This document shows, piece by piece, positions 27,740-46,619 of a stretch of 64,000 bases of DNA. The DNA is taken from contig NZ_CP094527.1 in the NCBI RefSeq assembly GCF_022811725.1, forward strand, positions 2,046,001 through 2,110,000, given 5' to 3'. The DNA comes from Mucilaginibacter sp. SMC90. Its GTDB lineage: Bacteria; Bacteroidota; Bacteroidia; Sphingobacteriales; Sphingobacteriaceae. Position numbers and translations under genes: made by a program. The notes under the pieces are model-generated. The model was not told where the DNA came from. It did no database searches and worked only from the letters and a program-made list of their open reading frames with translations. Position 1 is the first letter of the stretch. Each line of letters starts with the position of its first letter.

Positions 27740-29722
27740 ATGATGAGAAAAATGCGCTACACAACGCTGGTGTTAATGTTGGCATTTACCTGGTTGGGAG
27801 CCTCTGCCCAGCAAAAAGCAAATGCGGCAAAACCAAAAAAGATCAGTCCTGATCTTTTCGGGATCTTTTTTGAAGACTTAAGTTATGCTGCTGATGGAGG
27901 GCTTTATGCCGAACTTATTCAAAACCGATCGTTTGAATATAGCCCGGCAGATAACCGCGACTGGAATTCGATGACTGCCTGGAAATATGAGACCGATGGT
28001 TTTGGTTATGGTACCATTTCGGTTGAGACTGCTGCTCCTGTTCATCCCAATAACCCGCATTATATTTTGCTTGATATTCAGGATGAAGGGCAAAAAGGGG
28101 TAGGGCTTGAAAATTCAGGGTTTGATGGTATCCCCGTTAAGGCAGGTAAAAACTATAATTTTTCGGTTTTTTTGAATGTATTGTCGAGGCAATCTTTGCC
28201 TGTAAAAGTGGCTCTTATTGACCGGAAGGGTAAAGAATTAGGCTCTTCCTCATTTACAACAGCCAATAAAGGCTGGAAAAAATATGCCGAACAGATTCAC
28301 GTGAATTTTGATAATGACAGCGCCAAACTGGTATTGTTGATCAAGGCAAAAGGGAAAGTTGGCATTGATATGGTGTCTTTGTTTCCTGAGGAAACGTTTA
28401 AAAATCATCAAAATGGATTACGGGCCGATCTGGCGCAGGTTATTGCCGATATAAAGCCAAAGTTTATGCGTTTCCCTGGCGGCTGCCTTACTCACGGTGA
28501 TGGTATTGCCAATATTTACCGTTGGAAAAATACCATCGGCCCGGTTGAGCAACGTGTAGAACAACGTAATATCTGGAATTATCATCAGTCGGTAGGCTTG
28601 GGATATTTTGAATATTTTCAGTTTTGTGAGGATATAGGCGCAAAGCCGGTACCTGTGCTTGCGGCAGGCGTGAGCTGTCAAAATTCGGGCGGCACCTGGA
28701 AAATAGGCGGCACCGGGCAAAAGGGCATCCCTATGGAAGAAATGAGCGCCTATGTACAGGATGTGCTTGACCTCATTGAATATGCCAACGGACCGGCCAC
28801 CTCTACATGGGGTGCAAAACGTGCCGCGGCAGGACATCCTGCACCTTTCAATTTGGAATACCTTGGTATAGGTAATGAAGATAAGATCACCGGTGTATTT
28901 GAAGAACGTTTCCGGATGATCTATGATGCTGTGCACAAGGCCCATCCCGAAATTAAGATCATCGGTACTGTTGGGCCAAGCCCTAACGGGGAAGATTTTG
29001 ATAAGGGATGGAAACTGGCCGATCAGCTTTCGGTTGGTATTGTTGATGAACATTATTATGAAAAATCGCAGTGGTTTTTAAAAAATACCGCGCGTTATGA
29101 TTCATATAACAGGCTAAGATCAAAAGTATATATAGGCGAATATGCTTCGTGGAGCAATACCTTGTTCAATGCCCTGGCAGAAGCTGTATACATGACCAAT
29201 TTAGAGCGTAATGGTGATGTTGTAAGGATGGCGTCATACGCTCCGCTTATCGCCAGGATAGGTCATACTTCATGGAACCCGAACCTGATATATTTTAATG
29301 GCACTAAGGTTTTCCCAACGGTAAACTATTATGTTCAGCAGCAGTTTTCCGCTAATTCAGGCAATGAGTATTTGCCAGGTATAATAAAGCTGAAAGGCGA
29401 GAAAGCAACAATTGACACTACGGCGGGCACATCAGTTGTAAGCGATTCTACAACCGGGGATATCATCCTGAAAATAGCTAATGCGGGCAATACCGAGCTT
29501 TCGGGAGAAGCCGATCTGTCAAAAATTGGTCAACTGCCTAAATCCGCGACGCTTACTGTAATTACAGGAAAGCCGGAAGTGAAAAACTCGCCCGACAATA
29601 CGCAAGCCATTCTTCCACAATCCTCCGTAATAAAACTGCGAAAAAGGTGGGTTTTCACTGTACCTGCTCATTCGTTGACCGTAGTAAGAATTAGCAGTGC
29701 AAATGCGAAAAAGAGCAAATAA
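27740..29722 (+). CDS. GH51 alpha-L-arabinofuranosidase
   Basis: The 660-residue protein has a signal peptide (MMRKMRYTTLVLMLAFTWLGASAQ, cleaved near ASAQ). The N-terminal barrel start LFGIFFEDLSYAADGGLYAE is diagnostic. An inserted carbohydrate-binding jelly roll covers about residues 95-210. The catalytic residues are Glu380 (GIGNEDK, acid/base) and Glu467 (YIGEYASW, nucleophile), and a beta-sandwich follows. It should remove terminal alpha-L-arabinofuranosyl residues from arabinan, arabinoxylan or arabinogalactan. Here it is exported, whereas many GH51 enzymes are cytosolic. Confidence 0.93.
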   Translation: MMRKMRYTTLVLMLAFTWLGASAQQKANAAKPKKISPDLFGIFFEDLSYAADGGLYAELIQNRSFEYSPADNRDWNSMTAWKYETDGFGYGTISVETAAPVHPNNPHYILLDIQDEGQKGVGLENSGFDGIPVKAGKNYNFSVFLNVLSRQSLPVKVALIDRKGKELGSSSFTTANKGWKKYAEQIHVNFDNDSAKLVLLIKAKGKVGIDMVSLFPEETFKNHQNGLRADLAQVIADIKPKFMRFPGGCLTHGDGIANIYRWKNTIGPVEQRVEQRNIWNYHQSVGLGYFEYFQFCEDIGAKPVPVLAAGVSCQNSGGTWKIGGTGQKGIPMEEMSAYVQDVLDLIEYANGPATSTWGAKRAAAGHPAPFNLEYLGIGNEDKITGVFEERFRMIYDAVHKAHPEIKIIGTVGPSPNGEDFDKGWKLADQLSVGIVDEHYYEKSQWFLKNTARYDSYNRLRSKVYIGEYASWSNTLFNALAEAVYMTNLERNGDVVRMASYAPLIARIGHTSWNPNLIYFNGTKVFPTVNYYVQQQFSANSGNEYLPGIIKLKGEKATIDTTAGTSVVSDSTTGDIILKIANAGNTELSGEADLSKIGQLPKSATLTVITGKPEVKNSPDNTQAILPQSSVIKLRKRWVFTVPAHSLTVVRISSANAKKSK

Positions 29723-29759
29723 TTATCCTGAACATTTGAAAAAGACAAACCAATTATAC

Positions 29760-31901
29760 ATGAAGAAAATAGTTTTACTGGGCGTTTTAGTTGGCTTATA
29801 TACAGCGGCTATAGCGCAGTCGCAGCAAAAATATAGTGCCTACCTCTTTACTTATTTTACAGGTGGAAAAGGCGGAGAAGAAATTCGTTTTGCCCTTAGC
29901 AACGATGGTTATCATTTCCGCGCGTTGAATAACAACCGCCCTGTTTTAAACTCGGCTGATATCAGTATTACAGGAGGCGTACGCGATCCTCATATTATGC
30001 GTACTGCCGACGGTAAAACTTTTTACATGGTGGCAACTGATATGAACACCGAAAAATACGGCTGGGGGCCGGATTATTCGATGGTGTTGCTAAAATCAAC
30101 CGACCTGGTTCACTGGACCTCAAAAACAATTGATATCACCAAACTTTATGAAAAATTTGCGGGTGTAAACAGGGTATGGGCCCCGCAAACTATTTATGAT
30201 CCGCAGGCTAAAAAATATATGATCTATTGGTCGATGCGTTTTGGCGAAGAGGCTGATAAAATCTATTATGCTTATGCCAATAAGGATTTTACAGGCCTGG
30301 AAACTGAGCCTAAACAGCTTTTCTTTAAGCCAGATGGCGGCGCCTGTATCGATGGGGATATCGTTTATAAAAACAATAAATATTACCTGTTCTTTAAAAC
30401 AGAAGGATCGGGAGCGGGTATAAAAATAGCTGTATCGGATAAACTAACCTCGGGATATGTATTGCGCGATAAGTATGTACAACAAACCAAGGACCCGGTA
30501 GAAGGGGCGGGTACTTTCAAATTAAACGACGGCAGCGGGTATATTTTGATGTATGATATGTATACCCAAGGTAAATACCAGTTTACCAGGACAACCGATC
30601 TTGAAAATTTTAAACTGATCGATGACGAGGTATCTATGAATTTTCACCCGCGCCATGGCACGGTAATGCCAATAACTTCAAAAGAAACGGCCGCGTTGAC
30701 AGCCAAATGGGAAACACCCGAAGATGTGATACTTTCTCCCATTAACAAGCAGATAAAAACCATCAATATCGTTTTGGATACCGCAGCCGGTAAGGTTCAC
30801 CTGCCTGTAAAACCGGGTACTGACTTAAAATCGTTTGATCCTCGTTTTACTTTGTTTCCTGGCGTTACTATCAGCCCTGCAAAGCCGCAGGATTTTACGA
30901 AAGGGGCGGTTAAATATTCAGTGACCATAGCAGGTAAAAGAGCGCAGGTTTTTGAGGTTACCGCTCAGGAAACCCATAACCCGGCTATAGCAGGATATTA
31001 TGCTGATCCGGAGATCTTGTATGCCGAAAAAACAGGCAAATTTTACATCTATCCAACCAGCGATGGTTTTGACGGTTGGTCGGGCAAATATTTTAAGGCG
31101 TTTTTTTCGGATGATATGGTAAACTGGAAAGATGAGGGTAAGATCCTTGATTTGCCGCAGGATGTGAGCTGGGCGAAAAAGAATGCCTGGGCACCTTGCA
31201 TCATCGAAAAAAAGATTGGCAACGAGTATAAATACTTCTATTATTTTGCTGCTGCGCAAAAAATAGGGGTTGCAACCGCAAATGACCCTGCTGGGCCGTT
31301 CACCGACTCGGGTAAACCTTTGGTAGCACAACTACCAGAAGGTGTTAAAGGTGGGCAACAGATCGATGCGGATGTTTTTGCAGATCCGCAAACAGGTAAA
31401 AACTATCTGTACTGGGGCAATGGTTATATGGCCGTAGCCGAATTAAACGATGATATGGTTTCGTTGAAGCCGGGCACCACTAAAATCCTAACGCCGTATG
31501 CTCATTATAACGAAGGTACCTACGTGTTTTACCGTAATGGTACCTACTACTTCATGTGGTCGGAAAATGATACCCGCAGCCCTAATTACAGTGTGCATTA
31601 CGGCACTTCAAAATCTCCTTTGGGGCCAATCGAAATCCCTCAACAAAACACGGTTATTGCCAAAGATGCTGCCAAAGGTATTTATGGTACAGGTCATAAT
31701 TCAGTGATCCAAATCCCGGGTACCGACGAATGGTATATCGTTTACCACCGCTTTAACTATCCTAAGGGAATTACCATGGGCGATGCTGCGGGATATAACC
31801 GTGAAGTGTGTATCGATAAAATGGAATTTGATGATAAAGGACTGATCAAACAGGTTACGCCTACGCATGAAGGTATAAAACCGGTACATGTAAAAAAGTA
31901 A
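29760..31901 (+). CDS. Tandem GH43-GH43 secreted arabinosidase/xylosidase
   Basis: I chose ATG 29760 (MKKIVLLGVLVGLYTAAIAQ); the frame extends upstream over the GH51 stop from a GTG, which lacks a signal peptide at its start. The 713-residue protein has two propellers. The first (about residues 20-310) shows RDPHI, IDGDIV and VEGAGTF; the second (about 410-705) shows YADPEI, IDADVF and YNEGTYVF. Both triads look complete. An Ig-like linker of about 80 residues separates them. The two domains may act on different linkages of the same arabinose-rich side chain. It is the third gene of the GH43-GH51 operon. Confidence 0.88.
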   Translation: MKKIVLLGVLVGLYTAAIAQSQQKYSAYLFTYFTGGKGGEEIRFALSNDGYHFRALNNNRPVLNSADISITGGVRDPHIMRTADGKTFYMVATDMNTEKYGWGPDYSMVLLKSTDLVHWTSKTIDITKLYEKFAGVNRVWAPQTIYDPQAKKYMIYWSMRFGEEADKIYYAYANKDFTGLETEPKQLFFKPDGGACIDGDIVYKNNKYYLFFKTEGSGAGIKIAVSDKLTSGYVLRDKYVQQTKDPVEGAGTFKLNDGSGYILMYDMYTQGKYQFTRTTDLENFKLIDDEVSMNFHPRHGTVMPITSKETAALTAKWETPEDVILSPINKQIKTINIVLDTAAGKVHLPVKPGTDLKSFDPRFTLFPGVTISPAKPQDFTKGAVKYSVTIAGKRAQVFEVTAQETHNPAIAGYYADPEILYAEKTGKFYIYPTSDGFDGWSGKYFKAFFSDDMVNWKDEGKILDLPQDVSWAKKNAWAPCIIEKKIGNEYKYFYYFAAAQKIGVATANDPAGPFTDSGKPLVAQLPEGVKGGQQIDADVFADPQTGKNYLYWGNGYMAVAELNDDMVSLKPGTTKILTPYAHYNEGTYVFYRNGTYYFMWSENDTRSPNYSVHYGTSKSPLGPIEIPQQNTVIAKDAAKGIYGTGHNSVIQIPGTDEWYIVYHRFNYPKGITMGDAAGYNREVCIDKMEFDDKGLIKQVTPTHEGIKPVHVKK

Positions 31902-34576: not shown

Positions 34577-34798
34577 CAGGAATAGTTTCAAAAGGTTTAG
34601 AGATAATCTAACCAGCGTATAATTAATTGCATTGACAATAAACCGATGCCGGTACACTTATTTGATTTTCCTGCGGCCTAAGCTATGTTTTCTAACTTAA
34701 TAAAATCCTGACCTTAACATAACACTGCAAAACTTGCCAGCCTTAATTCATTTTATTGCAATAATTATATAATGTCTATGGTTTTAGTAGAAATTATA

Positions 34799-34806
34799 TA
34801 TATTTG
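34799..34806 (+). promoter_or_regulatory. Candidate -7 box of the riboswitch operon
   Basis: TATATTTG matches TAnnTTTG and lies about 30 bases before the riboswitch aptamer. No clear -33 element was identified. Confidence 0.55.
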
Positions 34807-34835
34807 CATTGTCAAAACGGTTCTTTGAATATTTT

Positions 34836-34946
34836 ATTATCAAGAAAGACTGAGGGAAAGGCCCTGTGATGTCTTAGCAACCTGTAAGCCCATTGTTATA
34901 AAGGTGCTAATTCCTGTCTGCCCAAATAGGGTGGAAAAGATAATGT
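34836..34946 (+). ncRNA. SAM-I (S-box) riboswitch
   Basis: The aptamer shows the SAM-I core in order: TTATCAAGA, GAGGGA, GGCCCTGTGATG, GCAACC, AAGGTGCTAATTCC and closing GATAAT. ATTATC and GATAAT pair as P1, which can extend through neighbouring bases. SAM-I elements usually lower expression when S-adenosylmethionine is plentiful. I did not find a strong terminator in the 110 bases before the tlpA-like start; a small palindrome CCTGTATATACAGG lies at 34960-34973, so the mode of control is open. The downstream genes should thus be part of the sulfur/methionine regulon. Confidence 0.9.
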
Positions 34947-35055
34947 AATAAATTATTGTCCTGTATATACAGGGCTGTATCTGCTTCTTTTCTCCCTTCT
35001 ATTCTTGCTGTTTAAAATATCGAAATATTACTGAGTTGATTTAACGTATATAGCA

Positions 35056-35622
35056 ATGAAAATTAAACATTTACTTATTACCTGCTCGCTTTCAATAACA
35101 ACATTGCTTGCTGCTGCACAAACAAAAACTACTGCAGACCCTAATGCAGATCGGGGTTATATTGTAAAGACGGGTGACGTGGCCCCCACCGATTTTGAGC
35201 TTGTACTAACCGATGGTACCAAAACATCACTGAAGCAATTACGTGGTAAAGTGGTTGTCCTGCAATTCACCGCAAGCTGGTGCAGCGTATGCCGGGAGGA
35301 AATGCCGCATCTGGAAAAAGAGATCTGGCAGGCTTATAAAGATAAAGGACTGGTTTTAATAGGAGTTGACCGCGATGAGCCGCTTGAAAAAGTAAAGGGC
35401 TTCCACCAGGTTATGCATATCAGTTACCCATTGGCCCTTGATCCCGGTGCTGATATATTCGGTCGCTTTGCCAATAAAAAAAGCGGTGTCACGCGTAATG
35501 TGGTTATCGACCGCGATGGCAAAATTGTTTACCTGACCCGTTTATACGATAAGCAGGAATTTGCCTCAATGCTAAAAGCTGTGGATGCTTTGGTAAACAA
35601 TAAAACAGCATCTGTTAACTAA
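35056..35622 (+). CDS. TlpA/ResA-like periplasmic thioredoxin
   Basis: The 188-residue protein has a signal peptide ending near LLAAAQ and a thioredoxin fold with Cys76-Ser-Val-Cys79 in ASWCSVCREE. The position usually held by the cis-proline after the central helix reads GVTRNVVID, so proline seems replaced by threonine. It probably reduces disulfides or thiol adducts in the periplasm. It is the first gene after the SAM riboswitch and is followed by a Cys-rich leader ORF and SusC/SusD genes. A role in handling a sulfur-containing nutrient is inferred. Confidence 0.85.
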   Translation: MKIKHLLITCSLSITTLLAAAQTKTTADPNADRGYIVKTGDVAPTDFELVLTDGTKTSLKQLRGKVVVLQFTASWCSVCREEMPHLEKEIWQAYKDKGLVLIGVDRDEPLEKVKGFHQVMHISYPLALDPGADIFGRFANKKSGVTRNVVIDRDGKIVYLTRLYDKQEFASMLKAVDALVNNKTASVN

Positions 35623-35694
35623 AAAATGCTGATGGTACGCCTGCTTGCCATCAATAAAAAGAGAATCTATCTGCACTTATTTAATATCGTTTTT
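35623..35694 (+). other. Spacer between tlpA-like gene and Cys leader ORF
   Basis: No terminator with a T-tract and no clear TAnnTTTG box are seen here, so read-through from the riboswitch transcript into the leader and susC is likely. The rest of the 373-base gap is covered by the leader ORF, the hairpin and about 130 bases of unassigned untranslated leader before susC. Confidence 0.4.
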
Positions 35695-35802
35695 ATGAAA
35701 ACAAAAACTACCCCCTTACACAAAAATGATTTCGCTTCGGTAAGCCTGTCAACCTGTAAATCCATCTATCCTGATATGCAAAGCATGCGTTGTTGCTGTT
35801 AA
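35695..35802 (+). CDS. Leader-peptide-like ORF ending MRCCC
   Basis: This 35-codon ORF (ATG 35695, TAA 35802) begins MKTKTTPLHKNDF and ends with Met-Arg-Cys-Cys-Cys just before the stop. One further Cys lies at codon 21. It has no signal peptide or membrane segment. Runs of one amino acid at the end of a short upstream ORF are the classic form of attenuation leader peptides; terminal Cys runs are known from cysteine-responsive leaders in other bacteria. It lies between tlpA and susC, 193 bases before the susC start, and is followed after 21 bases by a stable hairpin. Translation is inferred, not shown. Confidence 0.6.
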   Translation: MKTKTTPLHKNDFASVSLSTCKSIYPDMQSMRCCC

Positions 35803-35823
35803 TCTTTTACAGCTTGCATGATG

Positions 35824-35864
35824 TGTTTAAATGCGGACTTGCTGCAGCTTGCCGTAGTTAAACA
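35824..35864 (+). promoter_or_regulatory. Candidate attenuation hairpin after the Cys leader
   Basis: TGTTTAAATGCGG (35824-35836) pairs with CCGTAGTTAAACA (35852-35864), with one mismatch and one G-U pair; the 15-base loop contains palindromic GCTGCAGC. It starts 21 bases after the leader stop. There is no T-tract, so it could act through RNA folding or processing rather than simple termination. Alternative pairings were not computed. Confidence 0.5.
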
Positions 35865-35995
35865 GCTAACATCCCCTAATCAATTCTTTACAGTTACAAT
35901 TGGTTTATGAGCCGGGCAAATTTTGCCTGCTAAGGCTATCGCCATGTTTCAGTATCTGTATCGGCATCAAAAATTAATTACAAACATTAATTATC

Positions 35996-38900
35996 ATGTT
36001 AAAACTTTACAAGTTATTGCTGGCAGTTGTATTGCCATTTATCCTCACCCAAACGGTTGCTGCGCAATCTGTTAAAATAAGCGGAGTGGTAACCGCTAAA
36101 TCTGACGGGCTGCCGCTGCCGGGCGTTAGCGTATCTGTTAAAGGTAAAACCACAGGTGCCCAAACCAATGTTGATGGTAAGTTTACCATCAGTGCCAATG
36201 TAAATGATGTGCTTAGGATAAGTTACATTGGCTTTACAACCCAGGAAGTGCCGGTTACTCAAAATTCATCAACGTTAAATATTGTGTTGGTTGAAGCCGC
36301 TAATTCATTAAATGAAGTAGTTATAACGGCGCTCAATATCTCAAAGGACAAAAAATCATTGGGTTATTCAGTACAGGGATTAAAATCAAAGGATATTTCT
36401 GAAGCCAAGGAAACCAATTTTGTAAACGCGCTTGCCGGTAAAGTTGCCGGTGTACAGGTTACAAACAGCCAGGGTGATATGGGCTCCTCACGCATCATCA
36501 TCCGTGGCGAAACTTCTATAAATAAAGATAATCAGCCCTTGTTTGTGGTTGACGGGGTTATTGTTGACAATACTCAATTTTTAGGGACTAATGGCTCAAG
36601 AGATTTTGCCAATGCACTTTCTGATCTTAATTCGGAAGATATAGAGTCGGTAAGTGTATTGAAAGGGCCAAATGCGGCAGCCCTATACGGTTCACGCGCT
36701 GCAGCCGGTGTTGTGCTTATCCGTACCAAAACCGGTAAGGGGGCAAAAGGGCTTGGGATAACCATAAACTCAAACACCAGTTTTGCAAGTGTGCAGGTAT
36801 TGCCCGATTATCAGAACCAGTATGGTCAGGGTTCGAACGGGAAGTTTAGCTATGTTGATGGTAAAGGCGGCGGCGTAAATGATGGCGTTGATGAAAGCTG
36901 GGGACCGGCGCTGGATGGTGCATTAATACCTCAGTTTAACTCTAATGGCAAGGCTGTTCCATTTGTAGCGCACCCCAATAATGTAAGAGACTTTTTTAAT
37001 ACAGGTGTTACGTTGAATAACGGTATCGCGTTTGCCGGCAGTAATGAAAAAAGCGATTTCAGGGTATCATATAATAACCTGCACCAAACAGGCATCGTTC
37101 CAAATACATCGCAGGGACGTAACTCATTCGCTTTAAATTCAAGCTACCGTTTCAACTCTAAATTAACGGTAAATACCACGGTTAATTATATTAAGGATGA
37201 TGCCGACAACCTGCCTGGTGCATACGGAAAACGTGCAACCAGTACCATGCTTCAGTTTACGTGGTTTGGCCGCCAGGTTGATATCAGTCAGTTAAAAAAT
37301 TATAAAGATGCCAATGGCAACACCTTTAACTGGAACAACAGCTATTACAGCAACCCTTATTGGCTGGCTTATGAAAACACGGTTGGCCAGCACAAAAATC
37401 ACCTCATCGGAAGCGTTGAGTTGAATTATAAGATCGTTGATGGCTTATCTGCAAATTTCCGCTCAGGTACTGATTTTTATAACGATCGCCGTAAGATCAA
37501 AGTAGCGTACGGTACCAACGGAACTCCGTTTGGCTCGTATGAGGAAGATGCGTATAATGTAAATGAAAATAACACCGAAGGCAGGTTGCAATACAATAAA
37601 AAGCTGAACAATGATTTCTCGCTCGATGCATTTGTTGGTGGTAACATCTCTGTAAAAACAATCGAACAAAATGATCAGTTAGCGCCTAAGCTTGCAATTC
37701 CGGGGCTGTATAACATGAGTAATTCGCGCGATCCGCTGGTTTCAACAAATAATTATTATAAACTTAAAACTAACAGTGTATTTGGCTCGGCACAGGTTGG
37801 ATTCAGGAACTACGCCTTCGTTAACGTAACTGCACGTAACGACTGGTCGTCATCATTGCCAATCGAAAACATGTCATACTTTTATCCATCAGTAAACGGA
37901 AGTTTAATATTATCTGAAGCGTTGGGTATTAAAAGCGATGTGCTTACCTATGCTAAATTAAGAGGTGGCTGGTCAAAAGTAGGTAAGGCCACTGATCCTT
38001 ATTCGTTAAGAAACATATTTGCTTTAGGTGTCCTTTTAGGTTCCAATCCGCAGCAAAGTTTGCCGGCTATTGATGCCAATAACAAATTGAAGCCGGAAAG
38101 CACAACTTCGGCAGAAGCCGGTTTTGAACTTGGTTTTTTCCAGGATAGGCTTCATCTTGATGTAAGTGCATACAATACCAATAGCGTTAACCAGATAATT
38201 CCGGTGCAGGTTAGCTCGGCAACCGGTTTTAGCCAAAAAATTATCAATGGGGGGCGTATTAACAATAAAGGTATTGAGGTGCAATTGGGCATAACACCAA
38301 TTAAATCAAAAGATTTTACCTGGGATATTACTACCAATTATTCGTTGAACCGCAGTAAGGTAGTTTCGCTTGATGCCGAAGGCCGTTTGCAGTCCCTTCC
38401 TATCGGGTCCGACCGGACAGTACAGGTAATGGCAGCAGTTGGCCAGCCTTACGGGGCACTTTATGGAACTGCTTATCAGCGTAATGCTACCGGACAGATC
38501 ATTATTGACGCCAGCGGCATACCGGTACTTGATGCAACTAAACGTTACCTGGGTAAATTTACACCAAACTGGATGGGGAGCATCAATAATAGCTTTAGCT
38601 ACAAGGGCATAAACCTGAGCTTTTTGGTCGACGCACGTTTTGGCGGATCTATTTACTCAAACACCAACCGCACCGGAACATACACCGGGGTATTGGCCTC
38701 AACTTTACCGGGCCGCGGTGCTGCTAACGGAGGCTTAAGCTATTACTATCCTGATAATAAAACATCGAACCCTGCTGTCCAGGTAACCGGCGCAGCCCCT
38801 GCGGGTGCAACTGTGTATAACGACGGTATGATATTCAAAGGCGTTAAGGCCGATGGATCGGCAAATAACACAATTATACCGGCACAATCATACTATAAAG

Positions 38901-39178
38901 GCTTTACCAATATTGATGAGGCTTTTGTGTATGACGCTACCTACATCAAACTTCGCGAGGTGAAACTGGGGTATTCCTTACCGGCTAAATGGGTAAATAA
39001 AATAGGTTTCCAGGGTGCTACATTTTCTGTAGTTGGCCGTAACCTTTGGATCATCCACAAAAATGCTCCGAATATTGATCCGGAAACGGCCTTTAACGCA
39101 GGTAATGGCCAGGGATTGGAAGATCTTACCCTGCCAACTGTACGCAACATTGGTTTTAACGTAAACCTTAAATTTTAA
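35996..39178 (+). CDS. SusC/RagA-family TonB-linked outer-membrane transporter (sulfur-linked locus)
   Basis: The 1060-residue protein has a signal peptide ending near TVAAQ and a CarboxypepD_reg-like domain (about 25-105; SGVVTAKSDGLPLPGVSVSV). A plug follows, with NALAGKVAGVQVTNSQGDMG and IRGETSINKDNQPLFVVDG, then a barrel ending NVNLKF. With the SusD-like lipoprotein it should form the lidded importer that TonB energises. No glycoside hydrolase follows the pair, and the control elements upstream are sulfur-type, so the cargo is more likely a peptide, amino acid or organosulfur compound than a glycan. The substrate is inferred. Confidence 0.93.
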   Translation: MLKLYKLLLAVVLPFILTQTVAAQSVKISGVVTAKSDGLPLPGVSVSVKGKTTGAQTNVDGKFTISANVNDVLRISYIGFTTQEVPVTQNSSTLNIVLVEAANSLNEVVITALNISKDKKSLGYSVQGLKSKDISEAKETNFVNALAGKVAGVQVTNSQGDMGSSRIIIRGETSINKDNQPLFVVDGVIVDNTQFLGTNGSRDFANALSDLNSEDIESVSVLKGPNAAALYGSRAAAGVVLIRTKTGKGAKGLGITINSNTSFASVQVLPDYQNQYGQGSNGKFSYVDGKGGGVNDGVDESWGPALDGALIPQFNSNGKAVPFVAHPNNVRDFFNTGVTLNNGIAFAGSNEKSDFRVSYNNLHQTGIVPNTSQGRNSFALNSSYRFNSKLTVNTTVNYIKDDADNLPGAYGKRATSTMLQFTWFGRQVDISQLKNYKDANGNTFNWNNSYYSNPYWLAYENTVGQHKNHLIGSVELNYKIVDGLSANFRSGTDFYNDRRKIKVAYGTNGTPFGSYEEDAYNVNENNTEGRLQYNKKLNNDFSLDAFVGGNISVKTIEQNDQLAPKLAIPGLYNMSNSRDPLVSTNNYYKLKTNSVFGSAQVGFRNYAFVNVTARNDWSSSLPIENMSYFYPSVNGSLILSEALGIKSDVLTYAKLRGGWSKVGKATDPYSLRNIFALGVLLGSNPQQSLPAIDANNKLKPESTTSAEAGFELGFFQDRLHLDVSAYNTNSVNQIIPVQVSSATGFSQKIINGGRINNKGIEVQLGITPIKSKDFTWDITTNYSLNRSKVVSLDAEGRLQSLPIGSDRTVQVMAAVGQPYGALYGTAYQRNATGQIIIDASGIPVLDATKRYLGKFTPNWMGSINNSFSYKGINLSFLVDARFGGSIYSNTNRTGTYTGVLASTLPGRGAANGGLSYYYPDNKTSNPAVQVTGAAPAGATVYNDGMIFKGVKADGSANNTIIPAQSYYKGFTNIDEAFVYDATYIKLREVKLGYSLPAKWVNKIGFQGATFSVVGRNLWIIHKNAPNIDPETAFNAGNGQGLEDLTLPTVRNIGFNVNLKF

Positions 39179-39184
39179 AACATC

Positions 39185-40621
39185 ATGAAACTTAAATATA
39201 TAACCATATTATCCGGCGCGGTTTTATTATCCATAACATCGTGCAAAAAGGAACTTGCCAAAACAAATATAAATCCTAACGGATCGGAGGTTGCACAGCC
39301 CGATTACCTTCTTACAGCAGCTACCAAAGCCACCTCTGATACTTATTGGGGGGTAGCCAATAACATGGATGCCAGTTTGCTTTTTGCGCAGTACTGGTCT
39401 AAAATTCAATATACTGATCCCGACCGTTACATTTTTACCAGCAGTTCTTTTGAAGAACTTTGGTCTACAGGTTATTCAAAAGGCATCGTGAATTTCAATG
39501 AGCTTATTAAACTTGCCGATGCCCAGGCCAATCCAAATTATAAAGGTGTTGCTTTGATACTTCGCTCGTGGACGTTTAGCTTACTTGCTGATTCGTATGG
39601 TAATGTACCCTACAAACAAGCAGGCAATATTGACCAGTATCTTACTCCAGCTTATGACAATCAAAAAGACGTTTATTTTGCTTTACTCGATGATTTAAAA
39701 GCGGCCCAGGCAGCACTTGATGCTTCGGGTAAAACCATTGCCGGCGACTTGATATATAGTGGCAGCATTACGTCATGGAAAAAGTTTGCCAACTCCTTAA
39801 GGCTTCGCATAGCCCTACGCATTGCAGATAGGGAACCGGCCAAAGCTAAACAAGTGCTGGCAGATATTCAGGCCGAGGGTGGCTCATACATCAGCTCAAA
39901 TGCCGAAACTGCCCAGTTCACTTACTTGGATTCACCTAATCAAAACCCTGTAAGTAACCTGTTTGATACCCGGGATGATTATCGCATCAGCAAAACCATA
40001 GTTGATAAGCTGTTTGCGCTCAATGACCCCCGCTTAACGGTATACGCTGCTCAAACGCAGGATGCAACGCCTCAAAAGTATATTGGCCTGCCAAATGGTT
40101 TGTTAGTAGGCGATGCCAGCAATTATGGTTTTACCAAAACCTCAAAACCGGGTACTTATTTCAGGGCACCACATGCCCCGGCAGTAATTTTGAGTTATGC
40201 CGAAAGCTTGTTTGACAGGGCCGAGGCCGCTGCACGTGGTTTTAGCACCGAGGATGCGGCTTCGCTGTACCAGCAGGGTGTTACAGCAGCATTGGCTCAA
40301 TATAGCGTTGCTTCAACAGATATTGCGACTTATATAGCGCAGCCGGCTGTTAAATACGATGCTTCTAATTACAAAAAATCAATTGGCGAGCAAAAATGGT
40401 TAGCCCTTTTTGGGCAGGGGCTTGAGGGCTGGACTGAATGGCGCAGGCTTGATTACCCGCAGTTACAGCCGGCAGTTGCTGGTACCCTGAATGGTAAAAT
40501 ACCGGTAAGATTTATTTACCCTGGCACGGAGCAAACTTTAAACAAAACCAATTATCAGTCGGCTGTTGCTGCACAAGGGGCTGATGCGCTCACAACTAAA
40601 CTTTGGTTTGATGTAAATTAA
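39185..40621 (+). CDS. SusD/RagB-family surface lipoprotein (SusD-like_2 type)
   Basis: The 478-residue lipoprotein has a lipobox SITSC at residues 16-20. NPNGSEVAQPDYLLTAATKA and the TPR-like helical body, including AESLFDRAEAAARG, fit the SusD-like_2 group, which pairs with SusC proteins often not devoted to glycans. It lies 6 bp after susC and ends in front of a strong terminator. It should cap the SusC barrel and bind the ligand at the cell surface. Confidence 0.9.
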   Translation: MKLKYITILSGAVLLSITSCKKELAKTNINPNGSEVAQPDYLLTAATKATSDTYWGVANNMDASLLFAQYWSKIQYTDPDRYIFTSSSFEELWSTGYSKGIVNFNELIKLADAQANPNYKGVALILRSWTFSLLADSYGNVPYKQAGNIDQYLTPAYDNQKDVYFALLDDLKAAQAALDASGKTIAGDLIYSGSITSWKKFANSLRLRIALRIADREPAKAKQVLADIQAEGGSYISSNAETAQFTYLDSPNQNPVSNLFDTRDDYRISKTIVDKLFALNDPRLTVYAAQTQDATPQKYIGLPNGLLVGDASNYGFTKTSKPGTYFRAPHAPAVILSYAESLFDRAEAAARGFSTEDAASLYQQGVTAALAQYSVASTDIATYIAQPAVKYDASNYKKSIGEQKWLALFGQGLEGWTEWRRLDYPQLQPAVAGTLNGKIPVRFIYPGTEQTLNKTNYQSAVAAQGADALTTKLWFDVN

Positions 40622-40663
40622 ACTTGTGTTCTGAAAATATCAGCGCATTGAAATAAAGTTATT

Positions 40664-40698
40664 AAACGGGTTTCCCTGAACGGGAAATCCGTTTTTTT
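40664..40698 (+). terminator. Intrinsic terminator of the sulfur-linked susCD operon
   Basis: AAACGGGTTTCCC and GGGAAATCCGTTT form a 13-bp stem with one G-U pair and a five-base loop, followed by a run of T. The T-run touches an ATG at 40699 that opens the bestrophin frame, which argues against that ATG as the start. Confidence 0.9.
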
Positions 40699-42272: not shown

Positions 42273-42431
42273 CGCCGCCACAGCTATGACAATAATTTCT
42301 TAATAACCAGGGCGAGATAATATTTTGTAACGGGTATTTTACATTTTTGCAATATTGTTGTTTATTTTACAATTAATTAGGTAGCTTTAATCTTCCAATT
42401 ATTTGTGTAATTCACAGCCTGCAATTTGTTA

Positions 42432-45400
42432 ATGAAAAAGGGATCCTTCTGTTGTTTTGTTCTTTTTTTGATTATTTCTTCGGCCTATGCCCAGTCGCCC
42501 ATCAAAAATAAGATTCTCAACTATTCTTTAAAAAATGGTCTTTCATTCGGCATTGTAAACAGCATAACGCAGGATGATAAAGGCTTTATGTGGTTTGCAA
42601 CTAACGATGGGCTTAACCGTTTTGATGGTACAAGCTTTAAGGTTTTTAAATCACGCGCGGGCGACTCAACCGCTTTGGCCAGCAATTATGTACAGAAGGT
42701 TTTGTGCGATATACATGGCAATATCTGGGCATCATCGCGCAATGGCTTAAGCAAGCTTGATACCCGCACCGAAAAATTTGTGCACTACAAGCTAAAGCTA
42801 AACAGGGCAGTAAAAAGCGACATTGGCAATATCACACAAAGCCATGACGGTAACCTGTGGATCACATCTTATAACCTGGGTTTCTCTTACTTCGATATCA
42901 AAACCGCCAGCTTTAATAATTATACCCAGGTTAATTTACCTCATTTGGCAAGTAACCGGGTAATTTGCTTGTTTGAAGACTCGAAAGGCTTGCTGTGGGT
43001 AGGAACGCAGGAGGGTGGTATAAACATATTCAGGCATCAGGGCGGGGTAATTAACAAAAGTGAAGGTTTAACGCCACAGATAGCCAATCTGCCAGCCACC
43101 AGGATAAATGATATTTTTGAAGATCATTTTCATAACATCTGGATAGCAACCGGCAGCGGGCTTGTTTATTATAACCGCCAGGCCAATAAATTTACATTAC
43201 TGCAAACCGATCAGCCTGGTGTTAAAAGCAAAAGGGATATTTCACTTAATGAAGATAATGATGATCAATTGCTTGTTGGCTTGCAGGATGGGGGGCTTTT
43301 TAAACTTAATATAGGCTCTAACCCAAACTTTAATACAGCTAATTACTTTTTACAGCCTGTAACCGGCGACGACGGTTTTTATCTTACCCAGCGCTCTGTA
43401 CAAACACTTTTTATTGATAAGGATAAAAATGTTTGGGCCGGAACTTATGGCGATGGTATCTATATGATCAGCAGCATTAAAGAAAAGTTTTCGCTGATCA
43501 CTAAAAAGAAATACGAAGTAAGCGGGGAAAGTCCGATAAGGTTTTATGGCATGTGCCAGGACCGCGACGGCTTTTTATGGCTTGGAACTGATGGCGAGGG
43601 GCTATTTAAAACAAGTCCCAACGGTACGCTTATTAAGCAATATAAGGCTGATGGCCGGGCCGGCAGTATTACAGACAATGCTATTTTATACGGTTATACC
43701 GATAAAGACGGAAATGTTTGGTTTGGCACCTATGCTAAAGGATTACTGCTTTATAGCAAAAAAACGGACTCATTTACGTCATATGCGCATAACGCCAATG
43801 ATAATAAAAGCCTTGGGGGCAACGATGTCAGGGTAATTTACCAGGATAGCCGCAAAAATATTTGGGTTGGCACTAACGGCGGCGGTTTAAGCTTGTTTGA
43901 TCCGGCTACTAAAACTTTCAGTAATTATACCCCTGCCAACAGCGGTATTACTGCTTATGATGTGCGGGCCATTACCGAAGACGATCAGGGTAACCTGTGG
44001 ATAGGTACTTACGGCGGCGGTTTGGATTTTTATGATGCCCGGCAAAAAAAGTTCAGTAGGTATTTTAAGCCCGCCGATGAAAAAAATAACCTGCCGGGAC
44101 AGGTGATATTTTCACTTTATGCCGATAAACAGCACCGCTTGTGGATAGCTACAGAGGGGGAGGGCCTCATAGCGTACAACCTTAAAAACAAATCATTTAA
44201 TAAATTCAACGAAACCAATGGCCTTGCCAATAATACTGTTTCTGCTTTTAAGGAAGTTGCCGACGGTACATTGTGGATGAGCACTAACAAAGGCCTGTCA
44301 AATCTTAACCCTGCAACCGGTAAAATATTAAATTACGATCAATCCGACGGTTTGCAGGCAGGGCAGTTTAACGCGGGCTCTGTTTTGTTTGATGCCGATA
44401 ATAGCCTCATGTATTTTGGAGGAACAGAGGGGCTTAATTTCTTCGATCCGGGAAAAGTAAATAAAAGCAATTATCAACCTAAAGTTATTATAACCGGTCT
44501 GCAGATATTTGGTAAGCAGGTTGAGGTTGGCGAGCAGGACAAAAACCGCACTGTTTTAACCCAGGCCATTAACGAAACCAGCCAGATCACGCTTGGGCCC
44601 GATCAATCAGTATTTTCAATTCAGTATGCTTCTTTGAACTATACCTATCCAAATAAAGGCGGCTTTGCCTATAAATTGGATGGTTTGGATAAAACCTGGA
44701 ACTATGTTGGCGATCAGCGCCTGGCCACCTACCGGTATCTTGAGCCGGGCGTTTACACGTTTAAGGTAAAAGCATCTAACCAGGATGGTTTATGGTTTGA
44801 TAATTATGCTACATTACAGGTTAAGATCCTGCCGCCATGGTATAAAACATGGTGGGCCTATTTAATTTACATAGCGGCGGCCGGCTTTGTTATCTACTAC
44901 TATATGCTGTACAGGGCGCGCCAAACCCGGCTCAAATATGAAATCAAAGTGGCCCAGCTTTCGGCCGAAAAAGATAAGGAGCTTAATGAACGTAAACTTT
45001 CCTTTTTTACCAATATCTCGCATGAGTTCCGTACACCTTTAACGCTTATCATCAACCCTGTAAAAGATATGTTGTTTGGCAAAAGCGAAGCCACCGACGA
45101 TGCCGGAAACCTTCATATTATTTATAAGAACGCGCGCCGTTTGCTGAGCCTGGTTGATCAGCTCCTGCTTTTCAGGAAAGCCGAAAGTGATACTGATAAG
45201 CTTAAAATTGTACGCCTTAATATCGTATCGCTTTGCCACGAGGTGTTTTTGTGTTTTAACCACCAGGCACGTACAAAGCATATCCAGTTTGATTTTATTA
45301 GCGAAAAAGATGCGATTGAAATTTATGCCGACAGGGAAAAAATGGAAATCGCCTTATTTAACCTGATCTCGAATGCATTGAAATTTACTCCCGAATATGG

Positions 45401-46619
45401 TTTGGTGAGTTGTACCATAACCGATCTAAATGATAAAGTTACCATCGAAATTAAAGATAGCGGCTGTGGTATAGCCGAGGGTACCGGCGATCAGCTATTT
45501 GGCAAGTTTTATCAGTTACAAAACTCGGCGCCATTGGCGGGCGGTTTTGGTATCGGGCTTTATCTTGTTAAAGCATTTATTGAAAACCATAAGGGAAATA
45601 TCAGTTATACCAGTCAGCAGGGGCAGGGTACGGTGTTTCATGTGTCGCTGCTAAAAGGCAGGGAGCATTTTGGGCAGCAGTTTGTTTTTGAAGATGTTGC
45701 CGAAACATCGGTATTCCTGGATGAGCTGATGGAAAACAAAGGCGAACTGGTAGCAGTTGAAGCAGTGAATACGGTAACAGCTAAGAGTCCGGAGGGGTTA
45801 AGCTCTGATACTAAAACTATGCTGCTGATTGATGATAACCAGCAGATCCGCACCTATCTAAAACAGATATTTAGTGGCGAATTTGAAATTTTTGAGGCCG
45901 ATAATGGTACCGATGGTCTTGAACTTGCTTATCACCTGGTGCCCGATATTGTGATAAGCGATGTGATGATGCAGGGTTTAAGCGGTATTGAGGTGTGCAG
46001 CCGCATTAAGGAGGACCCTGTTTTAAACCACATCCCGGTGATATTGCTTACTGCCAGTTCGTCGCCCGAAATAAAACTTAAAGGCATTGAGGGCGGGGCC
46101 GACGATTATATCAGTAAACCTTTTGAAAAAGAGATTCTGGTGGCCCGTGTAAACGGTATCCTGAAAAGCAGGAACAATCTGCAAAAGTATTTCTATAATG
46201 AAATAACGCTTAATAAATCCAACGACCTGAAAATTTCGCAGGAGTATAAGGAGTTTTTAGAAAAATGCCTGCAGATAGTTGAGCAGCATTTGACCGATCC
46301 TGATTTCAGTATTAAAACGCTTGCTGCCGAAATAGGCATGAGCCACTCTAATTTATATAAGCGCATCAAATCCATTTCGGGGCAATCGGCAAACAGTTTC
46401 ATCCGTTTTATCCGCTTGCGTAAGGCTGCCGAAATCTTGCTCACAACAGACAGCACTGTTTATGAAACAGCGTATAAAGTGGGTTTAAATGATTTGAAAT
46501 ACTTCAGGGAGCAGTTCAATAAACTGTTTGGGATAAATCCGTCAGACTATATCAAAAAATATCGTAAGCCCTTTCACAATAACTACAACGTGAACCGCGA
46601 CGTGATCAGGGAAAATTAA
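42432..46619 (+). CDS. Hybrid two-component system regulator (HTCS) of the galactan-type PUL
   Basis: I chose ATG 42432 (MKKGSFCCFVLFLIISSAYAQ), giving 1395 residues. Periplasmic two-component-regulator propeller repeats (patterns like GNVWFGTYAKG and KNIWVGTNGGG) fill about residues 25-690, followed by a Y_Y_Y domain and one membrane helix near 815-835. The histidine kinase has His864 in NISHEFRTP, then an HATPase domain, a receiver with Asp1177 (ISDVMMQG) and a C-terminal AraC-type helix-turn-helix (about 1290-1385). Such single-protein sensors detect oligosaccharides in the periplasm and switch on the neighbouring PUL, here the SusCD and hydrolase genes from 47099. Confidence 0.95.
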   Translation: MKKGSFCCFVLFLIISSAYAQSPIKNKILNYSLKNGLSFGIVNSITQDDKGFMWFATNDGLNRFDGTSFKVFKSRAGDSTALASNYVQKVLCDIHGNIWASSRNGLSKLDTRTEKFVHYKLKLNRAVKSDIGNITQSHDGNLWITSYNLGFSYFDIKTASFNNYTQVNLPHLASNRVICLFEDSKGLLWVGTQEGGINIFRHQGGVINKSEGLTPQIANLPATRINDIFEDHFHNIWIATGSGLVYYNRQANKFTLLQTDQPGVKSKRDISLNEDNDDQLLVGLQDGGLFKLNIGSNPNFNTANYFLQPVTGDDGFYLTQRSVQTLFIDKDKNVWAGTYGDGIYMISSIKEKFSLITKKKYEVSGESPIRFYGMCQDRDGFLWLGTDGEGLFKTSPNGTLIKQYKADGRAGSITDNAILYGYTDKDGNVWFGTYAKGLLLYSKKTDSFTSYAHNANDNKSLGGNDVRVIYQDSRKNIWVGTNGGGLSLFDPATKTFSNYTPANSGITAYDVRAITEDDQGNLWIGTYGGGLDFYDARQKKFSRYFKPADEKNNLPGQVIFSLYADKQHRLWIATEGEGLIAYNLKNKSFNKFNETNGLANNTVSAFKEVADGTLWMSTNKGLSNLNPATGKILNYDQSDGLQAGQFNAGSVLFDADNSLMYFGGTEGLNFFDPGKVNKSNYQPKVIITGLQIFGKQVEVGEQDKNRTVLTQAINETSQITLGPDQSVFSIQYASLNYTYPNKGGFAYKLDGLDKTWNYVGDQRLATYRYLEPGVYTFKVKASNQDGLWFDNYATLQVKILPPWYKTWWAYLIYIAAAGFVIYYYMLYRARQTRLKYEIKVAQLSAEKDKELNERKLSFFTNISHEFRTPLTLIINPVKDMLFGKSEATDDAGNLHIIYKNARRLLSLVDQLLLFRKAESDTDKLKIVRLNIVSLCHEVFLCFNHQARTKHIQFDFISEKDAIEIYADREKMEIALFNLISNALKFTPEYGLVSCTITDLNDKVTIEIKDSGCGIAEGTGDQLFGKFYQLQNSAPLAGGFGIGLYLVKAFIENHKGNISYTSQQGQGTVFHVSLLKGREHFGQQFVFEDVAETSVFLDELMENKGELVAVEAVNTVTAKSPEGLSSDTKTMLLIDDNQQIRTYLKQIFSGEFEIFEADNGTDGLELAYHLVPDIVISDVMMQGLSGIEVCSRIKEDPVLNHIPVILLTASSSPEIKLKGIEGGADDYISKPFEKEILVARVNGILKSRNNLQKYFYNEITLNKSNDLKISQEYKEFLEKCLQIVEQHLTDPDFSIKTLAAEIGMSHSNLYKRIKSISGQSANSFIRFIRLRKAAEILLTTDSTVYETAYKVGLNDLKYFREQFNKLFGINPSDYIKKYRKPFHNNYNVNRDVIREN

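Follow-up and report, generated by a model that had tools for sequence, protein, structure and literature searches.

Positions 34775-40694 of a 64,000-nucleotide stretch of the Mucilaginibacter sp. SMC90 genome (contig NZ_CP094527.1, positions 2,046,001 to 2,110,000, forward strand), from now on referred to as the window, hold an outer-membrane importer unit of the SusC/SusD (SusCD) type. Such pairs import nutrients, are abundant in Bacteroidota and are by default read as glycan systems. The unit described here consists of a palindrome, a TAnnTTTG promoter box, an S-adenosylmethionine (SAM) riboswitch of the SAM-I class, a TlpA-like thioredoxin gene, a short open reading frame (ORF) ending in cysteine codons, susC, susD and a terminator. 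It is real, conserved and multiply sulfur-marked. The host genome comprises 8.13 Mb on one contig. The components of the unit are:

34775..34791, no strand assigned: palindrome TCTATGGTTTTAGTAGA (17 bp, WCTAY-N7-RTAGW), predicted operator adjoining the promoter box
34799..34806, + strand: promoter box TATATTTG, a Bacteroidota-type -7 box (TAnnTTTG), identified from sequence
34834..34946, + strand: SAM-I riboswitch aptamer (RF00162, 84.9 bits, gathering score 44.4)
35056..35622, + strand: TlpA/ResA-like thioredoxin, 188 amino acids, WCSVC motif, signal-like N-terminus judged by eye (PF08534/PF00578)
35695..35802, + strand: leader ORF of 35 codons ending Met-Arg-Cys-Cys-Cys, Cys codons at 35791-35799, identified from sequence
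35803..35995, + strand: 193-nucleotide (nt) gap from leader stop to susC start
35996..39178, + strand: SusC/RagA TonB-dependent outer-membrane transporter, 1060 amino acids (TIGR04056, 650 bits)
39185..40621, + strand: SusD-like lipoprotein, 478 amino acids, lipobox Cys20 (PF12771, 385 bits)
40664..40694, + strand: intrinsic terminator closing the unit, a 13-pair stem followed by a T-run

A first-pass annotation of the window had proposed this order of parts, from promoter box through SAM-I, TlpA-like protein, Cys-Cys-Cys ORF, SusC and SusD to terminator, and all of them are present; the palindrome is an element that it had missed. Its assignment of the aptamer to SAM-I agrees with the RF00162 match, which spans the full model (1-108) on the + strand at an E value of 1.2e-18, well above the cut-off, and is the sole Rfam gathering match in the window. 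The annotation had also seen no glycoside hydrolase inside the unit, which is correct; a GH43 gene at 29697-31901 lies outside. Neither a glycan-degrading enzyme nor a glycan-type regulator was found from the palindrome to the terminator, and the unit thus does not qualify as a polysaccharide utilisation locus (PUL). SusC exceeds the TIGR04056 cut-off of 368 bits and belongs to the SusC/RagA transporters, and the adjacent SusD is a lipoprotein whose lipobox Cys20 is invariant in both alignments. The thioredoxin has a Redoxin/AhpC-TSA domain with a CxxC motif and stays below the curated NCBIfam cut-offs for ResA (81 vs 170 bits) and TlpA (42 vs 230 bits).

Orthologous loci were compared in two sets. 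The named set comprises the best 80 of 323 confirmed relatives, from Mucilaginibacter, Pedobacter, Hufsiella and Chitinophagaceae, of which the 77 with a complete susC were counted (L131, L156 and L160 were dropped). A SusD search of 121 family genomes returned 19 sequences, the window's own included, at 59% identity or more, followed by a sharp drop to at most 41%; the 18 other orthologs form the family-genome set. The two sets overlap and their counts were never summed. The window SusC is nearest to that of Mucilaginibacter gossypiicola and its kin and at most 89% identical to it. Thirty of the 56 SusC genes listed in the window's own genome served as controls, using 350-nt search windows and a repeat with 420 nt. 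Shuffled sequences preserved dinucleotides for the leader and letters only for the palindrome.

A SAM-I element lies in sense upstream of susC at 60/77 named loci and at 16/18 family-genome orthologs, compared with 0/2 outgroups. It is on the opposite strand in L134 and L146, and among the 77 loci it was not found in 11 from Chitinophagaceae or unplaced records, 3 from Mucilaginibacter and 1 from Pedobacter. Some of these absences may be cut-offs, since the DNA before susC is shorter than 2 kb in L134, L165, L171, L173 and L197 (307 nt in L197). On a FastTree tree, SAM-I presence requires at least 7 changes and the leader, at a rule of two Cys, 7. A model, R1, combines 15 SAM-I sequences from the window and the family-genome set. 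The interval from SAM-I to susC encodes the small TlpA or a cysteine desulfurase or both in some loci, and neither in others. A terminator follows SAM-I on its 3' side in 15/60 loci (0.8 expected), all of them Pedobacter. In L182, L177, L194 and 12 other Pedobacter loci, a terminator-like hairpin has its T-run about 56-65 nt past SAM-I; in L200 the T-run lies 81 nt past the aptamer behind a different hairpin. The Pedobacter-type hairpin after SAM-I was not found in Mucilaginibacter loci. We predict that the aptamer binds SAM and lowers expression, and infer this OFF direction from the riboswitch family and the Pedobacter terminators.

The palindrome was noticed when reading the upstream DNA of the loci. 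WCTAY-N7-RTAGW occurs within 1.8 kb upstream of susC at 53/77 loci (4.0 expected) and at 1/30 control SusC genes, counts for the susCD loci being partly circular because these loci are related and some of them served to define the motif. If the outer letters are left free and a TAnnTTTG box is required 4-12 nt behind it, the dyad is found at 39/77 loci (0.05 expected) and 0/30 controls, and one or the other form at 57/77. TAnnTTTG is given as the sigma-A consensus of a flavobacterium in the accessible part of one report (PMC9723704). Where SAM-I is present in sense, a perfect dyad lies no more than 110 nt upstream of it in 50/60 loci and one with a single mismatch in 9 more (0.2 expected), at a spacing of 33-50 nt, most often 42 nt. 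Thirteen of the 17 loci without in-sense SAM-I likewise carry the dyad within 1.8 kb upstream of susC.

Sulfite-reductase loci provided a sample independent of the loci that defined the motif (30 loci, from 35 matches found across 34 of 41 genomes). In 15/30, three of them perfect, the dyad with at most one mismatch precedes TAnnTTTG by 4-12 nt (0.16 expected); since the usual mismatch falls in the right half, the site is to be regarded as a near-copy. An Rrf2 gene lies upstream in 11/30 of these loci. The Rrf2 gene adjoining the sulfite-reductase operon matches TIGR00738 and stays below the cut-off of the CymR model. This match and the dyad-like site in the sulfite-reductase promoter resemble known Rrf2/CymR-type sulfur regulators, binding being a prediction in the present case.

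The family's SAM-I loci were also read for their genes (29 of 30 fetched, gene names assigned by eye). Nineteen of the 29 have the dyad: 8 are susCD loci, 7 encode a cysteine desulfurase first, 3 a peroxiredoxin-like protein and 1 a TlpA-like protein. Two of the seven desulfurase-first loci are also susCD loci, and the TlpA-like locus has no susC in view. Among the 10 dyad-free loci, 8 precede methionine/homoserine-pathway-like genes and 2 have no ORF called. The order of dyad, SAM-I and peroxiredoxin-like gene was seen by eye in L106, L111 and L121, from other family genomes.

Of the 15 perfect TCTAYN7RTAGA sites in the window's own genome, 3 lie just upstream of a SAM-I element, namely the site in the window and two in a cluster of DsbD-like, TlpA-like and TonB-receptor genes (by eye). 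One of these two, the dyad at C1:4605257-4605273 (L237 758-774; L008), has an encapsulin operon on one side and the cluster, which holds two SAM-I elements, on the other. In this operon, the family 2A encapsulin gene is followed by a cysteine-desulfurase-type gene and then by a serine acetyltransferase-like gene. The neighboring cluster comprises DsbD-like, TlpA-like, YceI-like, MauG-like and TonB-receptor genes, several of them named by eye, and a Cys leader ending CCCR follows its first SAM-I. Elsewhere in the genome, a dyad with promoter box precedes a 639-amino-acid protein with glucosamine-6-phosphate isomerase and PIG-L domains (C1:7179473, L241), and another lies upstream of an AhpC-TSA gene (C1:4689579, L240).

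The third element is the Cys-ending ORF. Its peptide in the window, MKTKTTPLHKNDFASVSLSTCKSIYPDMQSMRCCC, starts at the ATG at 35695, has its stop at 35802 and ends with MRCCC after 35 amino acids. Leaders were defined as ORFs with an ATG start, 12-70 codons, a position no more than 420 nt from susC and at least 3 Cys among the last 12 residues. Such a leader is present in 52/77 loci, compared with 1.8 expected from dinucleotide shuffles, and at a rule of two Cys in 67/77. Among the 20 residues, Cys alone stands out at the leader end (Met: 4 vs 0.4 expected). Control SusC genes gave 0/30 at three Cys and 6 or 3/30 at two, depending on the choice of start. At the two-Cys rule, the leader persists in 13 of the 17 loci that have no in-sense SAM-I and is absent from 4. 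Judged by eye, the peptide body diverges across orthologs and the Cys tail is kept.

The ORF could be a chance occurrence or an unrelated small protein with no regulatory role, and several results are in line with this: seven such leader peptides had no NCBIfam match, no general RNA switch was found around the leader, and 25/77 loci miss the three-Cys rule and 10/77 the two-Cys rule. However, the excess of three-Cys leaders over shuffles, which is unique to Cys among the residues, the persistence of the tail in otherwise divergent peptides and the presence of a similar tail after another SAM-I element of the same genome make this explanation very improbable. At C1:3839549-3839560 (L004, L009), too, the SAM-I element that precedes sulfhydrylase/metX-like genes (by eye) is followed by an ORF ending CICMCCCC.

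Two further patterns were discarded. A TTGCTTTGCC-like element before susC was present at 8/21 loci and 2/30 controls, the pattern being loose, and for CCC-stop as a genome-wide regulon finder, most sites that were read had very short frames or fell inside larger ORFs. Of 30 loci taken from the CCC-stop scan, L035 is the one good case: at C1:1144494-1144605 of the window's own genome (L035, L226), a dyad is followed by a 15-codon ORF ending CSCCC and a PhyH-family dioxygenase gene. This locus may also belong to the regulon, although none of the genome's six SAM-I matches lies there.

The thioredoxin and other neighboring genes vary among relatives. The first-pass annotation had suggested a search of related genomes for SAM-I followed by TlpA and SusCD; SAM-I precedes susC at the 60 loci given above, and some form of TlpA is present at 45/77, making the thioredoxin common and not universal. 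The small TlpA is found at 23/77 loci and a longer TlpA-like protein at 22/77. The gene of the longer one is divergent in L146 and 16 Pedobacter loci, and in L159, L162, L164, L167 and L168 it lies downstream of susD. A NifS-like cysteine desulfurase, whose best model match stays below cut-off, is encoded at 8/77 loci: in sense upstream of susC in L158, L161, L163, L167 and L168, divergently in L146 and, in L141 and L152, farther downstream and preceded by a separate SAM-I. L136 has a partial match. An encapsulin shell with desulfurase cargo was identified at 3/77 loci (L130, L143, L146). The shell exceeds its cut-off in L143 and in the window's own genome, and the cargo does so in L143; in L130 and L146 they were assigned by similarity. 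In L046, a locus of the family-genome set without SAM-I, MetQ and MetN (both above cut-offs) and an Rrf2 gene adjoin susCD. Although confined to a minority of loci, this company of desulfurase, encapsulin and MetQ/MetN fits sulfur acquisition. A PIG-L hydrolase gene follows susD in L127, L128, L135 and L137 and lies within the divergent operon in L146. Its assignment as a bacillithiol enzyme was rejected, with BshB2 scoring 51.6 bits against a cut-off of 195.

The accessible text of one study describes SrpI of S. elongatus as a family 2A encapsulin with cysteine desulfurase cargo (PMC8049743). Shell and cargo are alike in the loci analyzed here, but they stand beside susCD at those three loci only, and the encapsulin of the window's genome is found at another, dyad-sharing locus.

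Based on the DNA and the encoded proteins, we propose, at a probability of about 0.7, that this is a SusCD unit with sulfur-type control, likely switched on at sulfur shortage given the control elements it carries, and predicted to import an organic sulfur compound. The first-pass annotation had likewise suggested a sulfur importer, from two control elements. The sulfur-type control is well supported, with the palindrome as a third element, while the cargo stays a prediction. The palindrome beside the promoter box would be a likely binding site for an Rrf2-family regulator like those encoded at sulfite-reductase operons, and this regulator would set transcription by either repression or activation. 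SAM-I would lower expression when SAM, and hence methionine, is plentiful. Translation of the Cys-ending ORF may report charged tRNA-Cys and, because the ORF precedes susC and not tlpA, would adjust SusCD alone. Through SusCD the compound would reach the periplasm, and disulfides in it may be reduced there by the unit's thioredoxin. The sulfur may be used by a cysteine desulfurase in some relatives and by an encapsulin sulfur compartment in a few, the co-location being observed and the function predicted.

Several observations weigh against this proposal. The dyad and leader rules were fixed after part of the counted loci had been seen, and these loci are related. TCTAYN7RTAGA is not enriched in the window's own genome, where it has 15 sites and the reversed pattern has 27, and 6 of its sites are inside genes; Rrf2 binding of the dyad is something we infer from position alone. 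The terminator finder returned no terminator after the window aptamer, and 6 SAM-I loci have no leader even at two Cys. Pairing of the Cys codons with downstream sequence is about as in shuffled sequences (mean 0.39 vs 0.34, 29/53 above), and terminator-like hairpins are rare in the leader gaps (5/67 vs 1.0 expected). The desulfurase, encapsulin and MetNQ neighbors belong to a minority of loci. To these come the PUL-like flanks of the unit, with the GH43 gene (29697-31901) on one side and a hybrid two-component sensor (42426-46619) on the other, a GH92-type cluster near 6/77 loci (L132, L145, L147, L170, L172, L175; one member Pfam-checked) and the solved relatives of SusD, among which chitin-binding Fjoh_4561 ranks first by sequence and fold and glucan binders are also near, with BT_2263 lower. 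The hybrid sensor carries propeller repeats.

With regard to the leader, the recurrent Cys run of a ribosome-mediated Cys attenuator is present, and the coupled hairpin or terminator was not found. As general pairing is absent and terminators are rare in the gaps, the leader is not classed as a classical attenuator. A search for Cys-codon pairing of that kind gave no general signal, and individual hairpins, such as that in L045, are unshared. Polycysteine leader ORFs are known from mycobacteria (Canestrari 2020, as cited in the accessible part of PMC13236596), and uORFC-8-2 is described as the cysS leader of Rhodobacterales in the portion available of PMC8632094. These share with the present leader the placement of a short ORF with successive Cys codons ahead of a gene that is probably linked to cysteine. 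Here, by contrast, the ORF occurs in Bacteroidota, often inside an operon directly before susC, and neither a paired terminator nor a general hairpin was found. For a flavobacterium, leader-peptide attenuation is mentioned before amino-acid biosynthesis operons (PMC9723704, in part).

RagAB is a peptide SusCD importer and BT1762-1763 a fructan SusCD importer. With these and BT2263-2264 the unit shares a SusC/RagA transporter and a SusD lipoprotein lid, but here three stacked sulfur-type elements and a thioredoxin are added, with no internal glycan regulator or enzyme. The best solved relative of SusC is BT_2264 at 457 bits (E 1.5e-135), the next solved SusC reaching 179 bits, a coarse ranking because no more than nine different solved SusC-type sequences scored above the threshold. 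Bt2263/64 is mentioned as a peptide complex in the accessible text of PMC7782687. For SusD, the AlphaFold model is mediocre (mean predicted local distance difference test score 68), and Foldseek placed glycan-binding SusD proteins on top and the BT2261-2264 complex first at rank 43. Since SusC points to BT2264 and SusD to chitin and glucan binders, peptides are one cargo option only.

A specific form of the first-pass reading, lying within the explanation we favor, is an importer of methionine- or cysteine-containing peptides similar to BT2264 or RagAB, including cystine or glutathione-type disulfides reduced by TlpA. The SusC match, MetQ/MetN beside susCD in L046 and the NifS-like desulfurase at 8/77 loci argue for it; the adjacency of MetNQ in a single locus, the coarse SusC ranking and the SusD relatives argue against it. 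We consider its chances close to even, if slightly below.

Alternatively, the unit could be a glycan importer that is merely under sulfur control, either for a sulfated or amino-sugar polymer or as part of a remodelling of sugar uptake at sulfur shortage. The SusD matches, the flanking GH43 gene and hybrid sensor and the GH92-type clusters leave room for a glycan cargo. However, the unit has no glycoside hydrolase, subsets of relatives encode thioredoxins, desulfurases, encapsulin and MetNQ within or next to it, and SusC is far closer to BT_2264 than to any other solved SusC. We therefore consider a glycan cargo unlikely and favor import of an organic sulfur compound.

A more far-reaching version of the latter, which we put forward tentatively and with some doubt, is a sulfur utilisation locus as the sulfur counterpart of a PUL. 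SusCD would import thiol- or methionine-rich peptides or sugar-thiol conjugates, periplasmic TlpA, and in some relatives also a secreted PIG-L hydrolase, would strip them, and the desulfurase would feed an encapsulin store. All would belong to one Bacteroidota regulon with a dyad-binding Rrf2 regulator, SAM-I and the Cys leader acting in series, and the cell would produce the importer only at simultaneously low levels of reduced sulfur, SAM and charged tRNA-Cys.

The riboswitch resembles known SAM-I (S-box) elements in its whole-model match and in the terminators of 15 Pedobacter relatives, but differs in preceding an outer-membrane SusCD unit, in lying behind a palindrome and, in the window, in having no terminator. 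Metabolite riboswitches ahead of outer-membrane importers are described in the accessible parts of two reports, one on a cobalamin riboswitch before a TonB-dependent transporter in a flavobacterium (PMC9723704) and one on a thiamine riboswitch-controlled outer-membrane transporter of Bacteroidota (PMC7366714). The ligand in those systems is the presumed vitamin cargo, whereas here SAM would be a metabolic read-out and two more elements are stacked. Searches of open-licence literature showed neither a case of SusCD under the control of SAM-I or a Cys leader nor a Bacteroidota sulfur-starvation regulon with candidate operator and regulator.

If SusCD systems with stacked sulfur control form a conserved class, their upstream DNA would offer a rule by which non-glycan SusCD pairs can be recognized. 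Such a class would also yield a sulfur-starvation regulon of Bacteroidota with a candidate operator and regulator, and would link outer-membrane import to encapsulin sulfur compartments.

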